64,000 bases of DNA from positions 1-64,000 of the forward strand of contig NZ_MWZD01000014.1 in NCBI RefSeq assembly GCF_002982315.1, read 5' to 3'. Shown here in pieces: positions 55,941 to 60,386 of the stretch (positions are counted from its first letter, which is position 1; every line of letters starts with the position of its first letter). Below the pieces are notes generated by a model that worked only from the letters and a program-made list of their open reading frames with translations, made no database searches and was not told where the DNA came from. The translations under genes were made by a program, and so were the position numbers. This stretch comes from Leucobacter massiliensis (GTDB taxonomy: Bacteria > Actinomycetota > Actinomycetes > Actinomycetales > Microbacteriaceae).

Positions 55941-56022
<82 letters not shown>

Positions 56023-56036
56023 CGCGAATGAAATGG

Positions 56037-56071
56037 CCCCTGACCTGGGCTAACACTTCCCGGGTCGGGGG
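56037..56071 (+). terminator. Hairpin just inside the island, after tRNA-Leu
   Basis: Two 12-13-base arms pair continuously with two G-U wobbles around a nine-base loop. It would serve as a substitute terminator for the tRNA gene, whose own terminator was displaced to 60268-60302. Confidence 0.65.
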
Positions 56072-56084
56072 TCGTTTGCGTTGG

Positions 56085-56107
56085 AAGTGCTAGAAAAAGT
56101 GCTAAGC
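56085..56107 (+). repeat. Left integrase arm-site pair
   Basis: AAGTGCTA at 56085-56092 is repeated 12 bp later as AAGTGCTAAGC (56097-56107). The same pair with the same 12-bp period and orientation occurs at 60102-60124, inside the other end. This is the pattern expected of arm-binding sites for the integrase N-terminal domain. Confidence 0.7.
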
Positions 56108-56179
56108 GTTGCCGTTGGCGTCATCGTGTTCTAGCGTCTGCGCGCATGGCAGTGTCAGCGCGACCTGAGAACATAGGGC

Positions 56180-56842
56180 ATGTCTTCCGTCCGTTCCGTG
56201 GTGTTCCTGCATGGTTTGGCCGAGGTGCCTGGTGTGTGGGATGCGCAGCGTGCCGCCTTGCCATCGGGCTTCGAGGGCGTAGCAGTCGATGTGTTCGACG
56301 GAGCTGGCTCGGGTGCGGCATCGGCGTTCAGCCTTGAGGGAGCCTCGGCCCTCGTGGTGGATGAACTCGACCGCTTGGGGATCGAGCAGGCCGATGTGTG
56401 CGGCTTGTCGCTCGGAGCGATGATCGCACTGCAACTCGCGCTGGATCATCCGAAACGTGTGCGATCGTTGACGCTGGCCGCGGGCCAGGTGAAGCCGCCG
56501 AGGGCGCTCATGGCGGTGCAGTCAGCGGTGATGCGCATGCTTCCGTCATCCGTCTTCGAGAAGCAGGGAGCAGCGAAAGACGTGATGCTCCCCGTGCTGC
56601 AAGCGGTCGGCCGAGTGGATTTCTCGGCGCGGCTTGCCGCGGTATCGGTGCCGACGCTCGTGCTGTGCGGTTCCAAGGATCGCCCGAACCTTCCGGCAGC
56701 CAGGTGGCTCGCGCAAGGCATCCGCGACGCGCAGTTGCACATCATCCCCGGAGCGGGCCACCAGTCGCACATCCAAGCCCCCGACGAGTTCTCGCGTGCC
56801 TTGGGAGCCTTCCTGACCGGGGCTGCCGCAAACGGCAAGTAG
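56180..56842 (+). CDS. Alpha/beta hydrolase
   Basis: The 220-residue protein has the alpha/beta-hydrolase fold: oxyanion region VVFLHGLAE, nucleophile elbow GLSLGA (Ser near residue 77), acidic residue in VLCGSKDRPN, and catalytic His in IPGAGHQSHIQ. No signal peptide is present. It resembles small lactonase/esterase-type enzymes such as the 3-oxoadipate enol-lactonase group. The substrate cannot be told. It is the first cargo gene after attL. A TAGCGT box at 56132-56137 may be its promoter. Codon use is less GC-biased than in core genes. Confidence 0.85.
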   Translation: MSSVRSVVFLHGLAEVPGVWDAQRAALPSGFEGVAVDVFDGAGSGAASAFSLEGASALVVDELDRLGIEQADVCGLSLGAMIALQLALDHPKRVRSLTLAAGQVKPPRALMAVQSAVMRMLPSSVFEKQGAAKDVMLPVLQAVGRVDFSARLAAVSVPTLVLCGSKDRPNLPAARWLAQGIRDAQLHIIPGAGHQSHIQAPDEFSRALGAFLTGAAANGK

Positions 56843-56884
56843 CGGGCTCGGGAAACGCTGCACTGTCGGGTGAGGCGTTGTGTC

Positions 56885-57310
56885 TCAGGAGCTCAGATGC
56901 GCAGCGAAGCGGTCGACGGCCGAGCGTTGCATGGTCGGAGTGACGTGGGAGTAGATGTTCATCGTCGTCGTGATCGTTGAGTGACCCAACCGCTCCTGAA
57001 CGACCTTGGGAGGCTCGCCGAGTTCGAGCAGCAGGGTCGCGTGCGTGTGACGCACCCCTTGATCGTGACCCGGTGCATGGTGTCGTACTTCTTGGTGAGC
57101 CAGTTCATGCGGCGATCCCACCGGCTCGTCATCGCATCGAGTGAACGCAGGAGCCCGTCGTCGTCTCCGAATACGTAGGCGTCGGCCTTGGCGAGAGTGA
57201 ACGAGAGTTCCGCGCGGGCGACCTTGTAGGAGGCGAGCACTTTCAGGGTGTCCTCGTCCACGTCTATCACGCGCGCGTTGCCGGTCTTCGGGGGCTTGGT
57301 CCTCCTCCAT
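56885..57310 (-). pseudogene. Tyrosine integrase remnant (truncated and frameshifted)
   Basis: The C-terminal half of a phage-type tyrosine recombinase is recognisable in two frames. One frame holds PPKTGNARVIDVDEDTLKVL to RMNWLTKKYDTMHRVTIKG. The other holds VRHTHATLLLELGEPPKVV, ERLGHSTITTTMNIYSHVTP and the end. The shift falls near 57055-57060, at a run of G/C. Box II Arg and His and the Tyr of NIYSH remain, but the box I Arg region and the whole N-terminal and arm-binding domains are missing. It cannot make an active recombinase. Confidence 0.85.
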
Positions 57311-57417
57311 TCAGAAGAGAAGGCGGTGCGTTTCAGAGAAGGGGCCTCCGTAGGACGGAACGAATCTGGGTCGGCAGCCGCGGTCAGATACTCTGGTGGT
57401 GGCTGGAGGTGAGTTTT

Positions 57418-57723
57418 GTGGAGAAGCGTTGGGTGTCGATCAAGCTCACCTTGCTGTTGCTGTATTTGGGCGTGCTGCCGCTGACTCCTGATGTTCCGCT
57501 TCCGTTCGCGTTCGCGTTGTTGGCGCTCGCGCTGGTCGCTGCGGTTCCGCTCTTCCTCCAGTTCGCTCGTACCCTGTCTCACAGGTTCTTCACGCCTGTA
57601 CAGCCGTCGCTTGTTCGTTCGGCGACACCGGGGGCTTGGCAACTGCGCCGCCCCGTTGCGCCGGGAACGCGGGGAACGGTGCGCTCGCGTGCCCCGTCGG
57701 GTCTGCCCGCTGCCCACGGCTAA
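57418..57723 (+). CDS. Small two-helix membrane protein (DUF6412-like)
   Basis: This is a 101-residue protein with two hydrophobic segments (LTLLLLYLGVLPLTP and PFAFALLALALVAAVPLFL) and a C-terminal Arg/Pro-rich tail with APGTRGTVRSRAPSG. Such tails occur in small DUF6412-type actinobacterial membrane proteins, though I cannot confirm the family. The GTG at 57418 is placed five bases after GGAGGTGA, a perfect ribosome site. It lies about 100 bases upstream of the ABC ATPase gene in the same direction and could be part of that system. Confidence 0.6.
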   Translation: MEKRWVSIKLTLLLLYLGVLPLTPDVPLPFAFALLALALVAAVPLFLQFARTLSHRFFTPVQPSLVRSATPGAWQLRRPVAPGTRGTVRSRAPSGLPAAHG

Positions 57724-57828
57724 GTAGCTCGACTCTGGCGCGCTCGCTCATGAGCGCTGAACGTTCGTCGCGCTGTCGTGGGCGGCATCGGTCAGTCCCG
57801 AATGCCCGCACGCGACCAAAGGCGAATT

Positions 57829-58551
57829 GTGCATCCCAAAGATTCTCAATCAAACAAACCTTCTGAGCCTGCTCCTTCGACAGCCAAGAACACCGAAGAC
57901 CCGGCCCGTGTCTTGCTGTCGCTCGTTGGCGTAGATGCGGTGAGCGTGACAGCCAATGACACGCTCCTGCTCCCATCAACGACGTTCCAGGCCGGAACGG
58001 GCCAGGTCGTCGCTTTGCGGGGCGAGAACGGGTCGGGAAAGACGACGCTCCTTCGCGCCGTGGCGGGCCGCATCAGACCGACAACGGGCACCGTGCAGGT
58101 GGGCGGCCAGCCAGTGAACGAACGCGATCCCGAGTTCCGGCGCAGGGTGGCAGCCATGATCGGATTGCCGCCAATGGCATCGGACCTGACGGTGTTCGAT
58201 CATGTCGCGCTCGTAGCCTCGACCTGGGAGACGAGTGCCGGCACGGTGGAGCCGGTGACTCGCCGCGTGCTCGCGGAGTTCGGTCTCACCGCACTGGGGA
58301 CAAGGTTTCCGCATGAACTTTCCTCCGGACAGACCCAGTTGTTCGGCCTTGCGCTGGTGTTCGTGCGCCCCTTCGACGTGCTCCTTCTCGACGAACCCGA
58401 GCAACACCTCGACCCTGGCCGGGTCGAAATGCTCGCACAGGCGATGCTGGAACGCCGAGCAGCCGGGGCAACGATCATCGCGGCTACGCACAGCAGCATC
58501 CTCTCGGCTCGCACCGCGGACCTCACCATCACACTCGGGGCGCAACCATGA
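57829..58551 (+). CDS. ABC transporter ATP-binding protein of the island
   Basis: Walker A is GENGSGKTTLLRAVAG, the signature is the variant LSSGQTQLFGLAL, Walker B is FDVLLLDEPEQHLDP, and the switch His is in IAATHSSILS. I use the GTG at 57829 because AAAGG lies six bases upstream, giving 240 residues; earlier in-frame starts (57778, 57802) lack a site. The Glu-Gln-His after DEP is unusual compared with the common DEPxxGLD. The last four bases overlap the start of the membrane partner. Confidence 0.87.
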   Translation: MHPKDSQSNKPSEPAPSTAKNTEDPARVLLSLVGVDAVSVTANDTLLLPSTTFQAGTGQVVALRGENGSGKTTLLRAVAGRIRPTTGTVQVGGQPVNERDPEFRRRVAAMIGLPPMASDLTVFDHVALVASTWETSAGTVEPVTRRVLAEFGLTALGTRFPHELSSGQTQLFGLALVFVRPFDVLLLDEPEQHLDPGRVEMLAQAMLERRAAGATIIAATHSSILSARTADLTITLGAQP

Positions 58552-60047
58552 GCGCCCCGCAGCTGTCGGCGGCATCGACTATCTGGCGGGCGCGGCGAGC
58601 ACGATCCGGCGGCGATAAGACCTACGCGCTCTATGCCTTCCTCTTGGTCGCCGCGATCGTGATCGTGCCCGTTATCCGTGCCCTGTGGCTGATCGCGAGC
58701 AGCCAGGCCGGGCTGGTAGTCCTGACGTCTGCCGACGCTTCCGCCGCGGTGTCGTTGATTCTCGTGGCGCTCTGGGCCGGAGCATTGCTGGCAGGGCGGA
58801 AGCGCGGCCCGGCGCTCTTGCCACCGTTCCTGCTGCACGCTCTGACCGGCAGCAGCATCCGCCGCGCCCGCACTCTCCGACGGCCGGTACTCCGCTCAGC
58901 GGCGATCATCATCAGCGCCTGCGCTGCCGGAGCCGTGCTCGTAGGAATGGCCCTGCTCGGTGACGGTCACGCACAGCTCGGAGACGTGATCATGTTCGCT
59001 GCCGCGGCCGGTGCTGCCGGTGTCGTCACCGCGGTGCTGTGGCTGCTCGGGCAGATCTTCCCCCGCGCTGCGTTCCAGAGTGCGCTCACCATGCTCATAG
59101 TTGCGGGAATGAGCTTTTGGATACCGGAGATGCTCACGTTCACGCCATGGGGGTGGGCGGGATCGAGCTATCCGCTATCGGGATCGGGTGTTCTCTCATT
59201 GGCGGGCATGGCGGGGCTTGCCTCCGCCTCCATCGTCATGACTCCGGTGCTGCTCAGCCGAGTTACCGGGATGCAACTCAGTACGCAGGCGGCGCAGTGG
59301 GAACGGGCTACAGCGTTCTCGTTCTCGTTCGACTTCCGCGCAGCGACGTCCGTCTACGAGTCCGAACCACACCTCGGGCGCAACATCCGCGCCATCAACC
59401 CCAGCAGACACCGGTGGGTGACGTTCCTCCTCCGCGATGCGGTCGGACAAGCGCGAACGCCCGGCCGGTCATTCGGAGCCATCACCGCGACCGCCGCAGC
59501 CGCAGCCCTGATCACGCTCTCATTCCTACCTGGCGCACCGGCCGCGCTACTCGCAGGTATAGCCGGAGTTGTGATCTACAGCGCGACTGGCCCACTCACC
59601 AAAGGGCTCCAGCACGCCGCCTATGTAGCGGGCGACTACCCGCTATACGGCATCAGCGATAGACGCCTCGTTCTCCTTCACACCTTGTTTCCGCTCATGA
59701 CTCTGCTCGCGGTTCTCACCACGTTTGCAACCATCACTGCATTCGTCACCGGAGTCGCACTCGGGCTTCCGCTGGCCGGAGCGGTCGTGGTCGGTGCCCT
59801 CACACTCGCCCTACGCCTCAGCAACGCGTTGAAGGGGCCACTGCCGCCGAGCCTGCTCGCCCCCGTCAATACACCGGCAGGCGACCTCAGCATCGTCATG
59901 CAAATCGGCTGGGCACTCAGTGACCCCCTCATCGCGATCCTCGGAGCACTCACCATCACTGTGCTTCCCATCACGCCTATCCCACTCATGACGCTGGCGG
60001 CCTGCGTCCCGGTCGTCGTCTTGGTTCGATGGAAGAAGCGACGGTGA
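58548..60047 (+). CDS. Polytopic membrane partner of the island ABC ATPase (DUF6297-like)
   Basis: The 499-residue protein has about twelve hydrophobic segments and a polar middle loop near residues 245-300 (AQWERATAFSFSFDFRAATS). It ends in the basic VVLVRWKKRR. ATGA overlap with the ATPase gene means co-translation, so it is most likely the permease of that transporter. It does not show ABC-2 or MacB/FtsX signatures. The size and pairing resemble actinobacterial DUF6297 proteins, which also lack a known function. The substrate is unknown. Confidence 0.75.
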   Translation: MSAPQLSAASTIWRARRARSGGDKTYALYAFLLVAAIVIVPVIRALWLIASSQAGLVVLTSADASAAVSLILVALWAGALLAGRKRGPALLPPFLLHALTGSSIRRARTLRRPVLRSAAIIISACAAGAVLVGMALLGDGHAQLGDVIMFAAAAGAAGVVTAVLWLLGQIFPRAAFQSALTMLIVAGMSFWIPEMLTFTPWGWAGSSYPLSGSGVLSLAGMAGLASASIVMTPVLLSRVTGMQLSTQAAQWERATAFSFSFDFRAATSVYESEPHLGRNIRAINPSRHRWVTFLLRDAVGQARTPGRSFGAITATAAAAALITLSFLPGAPAALLAGIAGVVIYSATGPLTKGLQHAAYVAGDYPLYGISDRRLVLLHTLFPLMTLLAVLTTFATITAFVTGVALGLPLAGAVVVGALTLALRLSNALKGPLPPSLLAPVNTPAGDLSIVMQIGWALSDPLIAILGALTITVLPITPIPLMTLAACVPVVVLVRWKKRR

Positions 60048-60101
60048 ACGTGTGGCCGTTGCATTCGCATTCGCAACCACACCGTTCAGCACGGTCGTCA
60101 A

Positions 60102-60124
60102 AAGTGCTAACGAAAGCGCTAAGC
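60102..60124 (+). repeat. Right integrase arm-site pair
   Basis: AAGTGCTA (60102-60109) followed 12 bp later by AAGCGCTAAGC (60114-60124). The pair matches that at 56085-56107 in motif, order, spacing and orientation. Confidence 0.7.
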
Positions 60125-60153
60125 AACCTGTATGTCGGGGTGTCGAGGTGGAG

Positions 60154-60162
60154 TTATCCACA
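60154..60162 (+). other. Single perfect DnaA box
   Basis: TTATCCACA matches the DnaA-box consensus in the otherwise gene-free 190 bases before attR. It is a single copy in a mildly AT-rich stretch. It may be chance or a leftover of an origin-like element. Confidence 0.4.
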
Positions 60163-60239
60163 GGTCATATGTCGTAGATCGTTGATTTTATGCGGCAGAA
60201 CGCTCGTGGCCGATTCGAGGCGCGAGGGGGTCGAGGTCA

Positions 60240-60267
60240 GTTCAAGTCCCCCCTCGCGCACGCGAAT
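60240..60267 (+). repeat. attR, right direct repeat of the island
   Basis: A perfect 28-bp copy of 56002-56029, covering the tRNA-Leu 3' end. Upstream of it the tRNA match stops at once, so this is the copy generated by integration. Confidence 0.9.
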
Positions 60268-60302
60268 AAAGGGAGGCAGGATCCGCGATCCTGCCTCCCT
60301 TT
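60268..60302 (+). terminator. Original tRNA-Leu terminator, displaced by the island
   Basis: AAAGGGAGGCAGGATC pairs perfectly over 16 bases with its partner across CGC and ends in TTT. It starts at the very next base after attR. Without the island it would lie eight bases downstream of the tRNA, the expected terminator position. Confidence 0.85.
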
Positions 60303-60386
60303 CGCGTTCCCGTGCAGGCGAGGGAGGACGTGAACCCTGCGGCTTCAGCGGCGCGGGAGCGCCGCCGCGAATCGCCCCACGGACGC

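Follow-up and report, generated by a model that had tools for sequence, protein, structure and literature searches.

A small island at a tRNA-Leu gene of Leucobacter massiliensis is very probably a decayed remnant of an integrative and mobilizable element

The window analysed here is a 64,000-nt stretch of the Leucobacter massiliensis genome (contig NZ_MWZD01000014.1 of assembly GCF_002982315.1, positions 1 to 64,000 of the forward strand), and it contains a small genomic island inserted at the 3′ end of a tRNA-Leu(UAG) gene. The integration target lies on the plus strand at 55941-56023 (tRNA call; Rfam RF00005 at 55941-56022), and its 3′ end is repeated downstream: the 28-bp repeat GTTCAAGTCCCCCCTCGCGCACGCGAAT is present in two perfect plus-strand copies, at 56002-56029 and 60240-60267, 4,238 bp apart. 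When the whole genome (3.14 Mb, 24 contigs) was searched with up to two mismatches, one extra match was found, at the end of the tRNA-Leu(CAG) gene on contig C4, and the reversed pattern, included as a control, gave no match at the same tolerance. The segment between the copies (56030-60239) has a GC content of 64.2%, compared with 71.2% in the remaining window, and none of 104 sliding 4.2-kb stretches to the left of the island was as low. These results bear out the original prediction, which had placed a less GC-rich segment between perfect 28-bp copies of the tRNA 3′ end.

It had also been proposed that the island could be defined base by base. Both attachment ends are indeed kept, but the core shared with the element family described below comprises only 22 of the 28 bp, namely the last 22 bp of the tRNA gene (56002-56023) and their copy at 60240-60261. 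The core of the left copy is followed by GCGAAT, which recurs in several relatives' left ends. The bases behind the relatives' right cores vary, so the right GCGAAT copy probably belongs to the host, the match being due to chance or to site choice.

The left end continues with a terminator-like hairpin (56027-56082, plus strand; fold −39.1 kcal/mol), which is presumed to replace the displaced terminator of the tRNA gene, and two repeats that contain GTGCTA (56085-56107, plus strand). The right end (60097-60239, plus strand) consists of further repeats at 60102-60124, the motif TTATCCACA at 60154-60162 and the approach to the core. The repeats at both ends are presumed to be arm sites of the integrase. 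An 11-bp inverted repeat surrounds the right core (60220-60259 on the plus strand, with arms at 60220-60230 and 60249-60259) and resembles a tRNA acceptor stem plus T stem. Beyond it, a hairpin at 60262-60305 (plus strand; fold −34.5 kcal/mol, z −8.6) resembles one behind the host's tRNA-Leu(CAG) gene, and is presumed to be the original terminator of the target tRNA.

Between these ends lie an integrase remnant and four other genes, as had been predicted. The left cargo slot (56115-56894, plus strand) holds an alpha/beta hydrolase gene (56180-56842, 220 aa; Pfam Abhydrolase_1). The tyrosine integrase remnant (56885-57339, minus strand) retains only the C-terminal third, with a match to the tail of Phage_integrase, and its DNA homology to relatives spans 56895-57312. 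The remnant covers approximately residues 269-419 of a 419-aa relative in two frames, the frame being broken once, and its identity to the integrase of the intact element G050 A is 93% in the final 58 residues and 73% in the preceding 96, so that the earlier description of a dead integrase is upheld. To its right are a 104-aa open reading frame (ORF; 57409-57723, plus strand) with no Pfam match, whose relatives, 71-87% identical, stand ahead of ABC genes in three species, a gene for an ABC transporter ATP-binding protein (57778-58551, plus strand; Pfam ABC_tran, 7e-24) and a gene for a 499-aa protein (58548-60047, plus strand). We refer to these three genes as the ABC block.

The 499-aa protein has no Pfam match and no sequence match in the PDB. 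Its structural model is all-helical (predicted local distance difference test 79, predicted template-modelling score 0.50), and the best Foldseek match, a mycobacterial efflux pump (E 0.02, template-modelling score 0.26), is too weak to assign a function. Because the ABC ATPase gene lies just upstream in the same direction and the model is all-helical, the ABC genes probably encode an exporter, with the 499-aa protein as its presumed membrane permease. A defence role was considered for the ABC ATPase, which matches 41 PADLOC families (best mad3, E 2e-21), and was rejected; since the other four island proteins match no PADLOC family, we read these matches as a shared ATPase-domain signal. No match to a relaxase, regulator, small helix-turn-helix (HTH) or Fic gene was detected in the window at E 1e-4.

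The related islands with an intact integrase for which the original prediction proposed a search were found. The genus sample comprised 54 genomes, that of the host included, and was searched by tRNA and by integrase. At E 1e-60, 13 of the 54 had integrase matches, the host's own genome having none. The searches led to nine elements that have both ends and encode a full-length integrase free of internal stops; they lie in seven genomes, three of them in G050 (A, B and C) and one each in G005, G033, G044, G046, G047 and G052; full-length integrases were also found in other actinobacteria. The nine elements occupy tRNA-Leu genes with the anticodon UAG, CAG or GAG, measure 11,205-19,520 bp from core to core, and encode integrases 77-100% identical to the G050 A protein. 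From the left attachment site (attL) inward, G050 A carries a frame-broken hydrolase gene followed by genes for the integrase, a helix-turn-helix regulator, a 74-aa HTH_17 protein, a Fic protein and a TrwC relaxase. Matches to the integrase, regulator, small HTH protein and relaxase are present in all eight distinct intact elements, and Fic matches in six of the eight (one partial). Pfam detected integrase and TrwC domains in G050 A and TrwC in G050 C. The latter element, at 11.3 kb with four genes annotated by Pfam and four by match, would leave little room for a secretion system. G050 A, at tRNA-Leu(UAG), and G050 B, at tRNA-Leu(CAG), both on contig C1, are identical over 19,542 bp, which suggests that one element entered two tRNA-Leu genes in what looks like a recent double insertion.

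Two further loci of the genus carry reduced units. On contig C20 of G033 (locus L153), the intact element has behind it a 4.0-kb unit whose integrase is truncated, with another left-end-like hairpin after that, and at tRNA-Leu(CAG) on contig C10 of G027 (L200) there is a 10.9-kb unit that possesses both family ends and has no integrase, regulator, small HTH, Fic or relaxase match at E 1e-4. Judged by sequence, the first arrangement is a tandem accretion with a second remnant, and the G027 unit is a second integrase-less remnant in the genus.

Beyond the genus, named genomes were scanned with an integrase profile, and the best 80 of 316 loci were kept, with at most 10 kb of DNA fetched beyond the integrase. 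In 43 of these 80 loci a tRNA-Leu gene (24 CAG, 18 GAG, 1 UAG) lies on the same strand within 2.5 kb of the integrase end. The remaining loci have tRNA-Ser(GGA) (13), tRNA-Arg(CCT) (4), tRNA-His (2), other tRNAs (4) or tRNA-Leu on the other strand (1), and for 13 no tRNA was found. The hosts include members of Leucobacter, Microbacterium, Gulosibacter, Nesterenkonia, Brachybacterium, Brevibacterium, Micrococcus and Mycetocola; at the far end of the best 80, integrases are only 31-36% identical and may fall outside the element family. The closest counterpart of the left half of the island is an element of Microbacterium sp. CBA3102 (L270), which shares a tRNA-Leu site, a hydrolase (89% identity) and 84% DNA identity over 1,377 bp. 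Unlike the island, it has a full-length integrase (96% identical to the G050 protein) and regulator, Fic and relaxase matches, it occupies tRNA-Leu(CAG), and the ABC block was not seen within the DNA fetched.

The ends of the island are those of this family. The left ends of the window and its relatives share one order, with the core followed by the terminator-like hairpin (z −6.2 in the window and −5.4 in G050 A) and then the two GTGCTA-bearing repeats. The left and right arm patterns, with up to three substitutions, are both present in seven of the nine intact genus elements, and other genera have the left repeats as well. Among right ends, ten can be aligned from approximately 60097 onwards, and the sequence to the left of that point differs between them. 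The right end shows blastn identities of 85-91% in seven like genus elements (the identical G050 B counted), of 85% in locus L219, and of 73-74% in G047 and G052, where only the part from 60143 matches. A right-core pattern matched 13 sites in 10 of the 54 genomes, and its reverse matched none. That core, left arm and right end are common to intact relatives supports the earlier view of an integrative island with both attachment ends.

The motif TTATCCACA, the DnaA-box consensus, is perfect in the window and is kept in nine of the ten aligned right ends. It is present in eight of the nine intact genus elements, the diverged G047 and G052 included, and near the right arm in all six named loci that have a separate right arm; it is perhaps a host-factor site. 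A family right end was also observed on a plasmid, the 465-kb NZ_CP072877.1 of Microbacterium sp. NIBRBAC000506063, at 375954-376093 (90% identity over ~140 bp); the chromosome of that strain has a full-length integrase locus (L208).

Internally, the island is a mosaic of three parts: a left end with hydrolase and integrase tail that resembles CBA3102, an ABC block that resembles G044 (Leucobacter sp. 7(1)), and the family right end. The hydrolase of the island stands where seven of the nine intact genus elements have their integrase gene, directly behind the left arm, and therefore fills a left cargo slot. Homology to the family stops at 57312, at the end of the integrase tail, and homology of the ABC block starts at 57357 (G035) or 57360 (G044), so that the junction is confined to 57313-57356. 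The ABC block shows 82% DNA identity to contig C88 of G044, which is homologous through 60184, the right arm included, and resumes at 60188-60252 after an insert of ~2.75 kb with ORFs resembling transposases. Since C88 has the ABC block with the same right arm and approach to the core, the association of the block with this right end is seen in two species.

Relatives of the cargo are scattered, and the cargo is therefore not core. Across the 54 genus genomes and 80 integrase loci, the scope of the hydrolase comparison (no wider hydrolase search was made), hydrolases more than 70% identical occur only inside elements of the island's family (G050 and CBA3102), and four other genus genomes have relatives at 50-53%. 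At E 0.001, the membrane protein has relatives in 34 of the 54 genomes, own included, yet at 60% identity or more in only 3 of the 53 others (G014, G044 and G035). Six of 398 genomes drawn from the taxonomic family, own included, have relatives at E 1e-90, and none were found in viral contigs. Cargo that was core in related strains, with no empty-site counterpart, had been named beforehand as the finding that would contradict an island, and this was not observed. The ABC block of G014 was considered as a like element and rejected: it lies near a tRNA-Val gene, but no second copy of the tRNA end and no arm repeats were found.

An empty counterpart of the insertion site was sought among the relatives, in which 49 tRNA-Leu(UAG) genes were read, 48 with at least 100 bases downstream (three further genomes showed only a CAG gene in the DNA fetched, and G041 was not read there). 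The family left arm is present at one of the 48 sites (G050), and the site is therefore normally without a family element; other sites have other hairpins or other elements. When the flanks of the island were joined in silico, they gave an intact tRNA-Leu(UAG) gene and a hairpin like that behind the host's tRNA-Leu(CAG) gene.

We conclude that the island is very probably a cis-mobilizable element (CIME), a decayed remnant of an actinobacterial family of integrative and mobilizable elements (IMEs) at tRNA-Leu genes, which has kept both attachment ends and its cargo and lost its mobility genes. The original prediction of a compact integrative island stands as to integration, but 'decayed remnant' fits better than 'compact'.

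Several observations weigh against this interpretation. None of the loci read has tRNA-Leu(UAG) beside the right-flank genes of the island (for PadR and a permease-prefix protein), so that no exact empty site was found; the permease-prefix protein itself is present in 22 of the 54 genus genomes. The proposed comparison with an empty site thus has a partial outcome, from site occupancy and the joined flanks. The 44 bp at the junction have no match in the comparisons with relatives, plasmid records and phage records. On G044 C88 the ABC block is accompanied by a core of different sequence, no left end was identified, and no tRNA was seen in the loci fetched for that core sequence. The hydrolase and the ABC block were never found together in one element, and within 10 kb beyond the integrase none of the 80 named loci has a membrane-protein match or an ABC ATPase match above 31%. 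In G047 and G052 the left arm is diverged, though related, there is no right-arm match, and the approach to the core is different. Finally, the right-end alignment kept 10 of 14 sequences (a motif filter removed G047, G052 and L219, and the DNA fetched from CBA3102 contains no right core) and the left-end alignment only two rows; statements on left ends rest for this reason on locus reading, blastn and pattern searches.

The main competing account concerns the deletion step and leaves the CIME interpretation untouched. It supposes that the integrase tail and left end came from one element and the ABC block and right end from another in tandem, the border between them having been deleted. Tandem units do exist, as in G033, where the intact element abuts the 4.0-kb unit with its truncated integrase; another left-end-like hairpin lies behind the right ends of G050 B, G050 C and G052, and the ABC block and right arm occur in G044 without the hydrolase part. 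However, neither a core nor an arm repeat that would mark an inner border was found between the integrase tail and the ABC block, the arm-like family D6 being confined to 56095, 60100 and 60112, and a single deletion is simpler than a tandem arrangement followed by a border deletion. We consider the tandem origin unlikely.

That the island is a minimal element and can still move as it stands, through another host integrase acting in trans, would agree with its complete cores, arm repeats and right end. We regard this as very improbable, given that the host genome has no other integrase of the same family at E 1e-60, and that neither a relaxase match nor a credible phage packaging gene was found. 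A tyrosine integrase at a tRNA gene and the small size of the island would also suit a prophage or phage-satellite remnant. The PHROG matches of the five island proteins are, however, to an integrase, an ABC transporter and an esterase, together with weak partial hits to ATPase domains, among them one named terminase small subunit (E 3e-4); no phage record matches the island, and the G050 relatives carry a TrwC relaxase. On the PHROG matches and the absence of phage-record matches we reject a prophage or satellite origin, to which we attach almost no probability. A plasmid origin was likewise rejected, as the three matching plasmid records cover pieces of only 1-3% of the island. The earlier reading that phage and plasmid functions are absent agrees with these PHROG matches and with both sets of records.

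The CIME interpretation, with a single deletion as the simplest history, suggests the following sequence of events. Integration at the tRNA-Leu 3′ end would restore the end of the tRNA and place an element-borne hairpin just behind it, and the integrase of the relatives would make and reverse the insertion through the arm repeats. The ancestor of the island may have had a hydrolase gene between attL and the integrase gene and an ABC transporter next to the right attachment site (attR), and one internal deletion would have joined the left cargo and integrase tail to the right cargo and right end. An intact tRNA, together with cargo that is tolerated or useful, could explain why the remnant persists. 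It would be expected to move only if a related element brought an integrase that acts on its ends, either alone or in tandem with the newcomer.

The island displays the path from IME to remnant base by base, with the same ends, the same integrase, cargo that differs on either side and a defined junction. Of greater importance than the island itself are its intact relatives, small relaxase-bearing elements that have integrase relatives in several actinobacterial genera and whose varied cargo may pass between genera. It is probable that they form a broad, unnamed actinobacterial family of IMEs with MobF relaxases, which uses tRNA-Leu isoacceptors (in distant members tRNA-Ser, -Arg and -His), brings its own replacement terminator at attL, has exchangeable cargo slots at both ends and has repeatedly collapsed into CIMEs (the window island, the G027 unit and the second G033 unit). 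The family may be undescribed so far: in the portions of the open-licence PMC literature available, no paper describing it was found.

Among known systems, the ActinoRUSTI integrative and conjugative element of Glutamicibacter arilaitensis JB182, for which excision was demonstrated by polymerase chain reaction (PMC5526665), is likewise actinobacterial and located at a tRNA-Leu gene. ActinoRUSTI differs from the island in its size of ~59 kb, its VirD4-type conjugation protein and its replication protein. Sulfonamide-degrading Microbacterium and Candidatus L. sulfamidivorax have TrwC/TraA relaxases near their cargo (sad) clusters; the island's family is not described in the available portions of those reports.

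The intact relatives resemble canonical IMEs, which have their own relaxase and no secretion system, in combining integrase, regulator, small HTH protein and relaxase within 11-20 kb. They differ in their TrwC/MobF-type relaxase, to which the island copy itself has no match: according to a 2017 review (PMC5704250), the canonical IMEs then known have MobP, MobQ, MobV or MobC relaxases and none has MobF or MobH, so that the type found here is absent from that set. A functional IME has a working integrase of its own, which the island lacks. CIMEs, an established category defined in the same review, resemble the island in that they keep attL, attR and cargo, have lost integration and transfer genes, and have intact relatives at the same type of site. 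The island retains its ends, its integration gene is dead and its transfer genes are lost, and its derivation from an IME is indicated by intact relatives that share its ends and integrase and carry a relaxase. It differs from the CIMEs of the review in being actinobacterial, in belonging to a tRNA-Leu family with a MobF-type relaxase and in not standing in tandem with an intact element. As the category is an established one, we regard the island as a further example of it.

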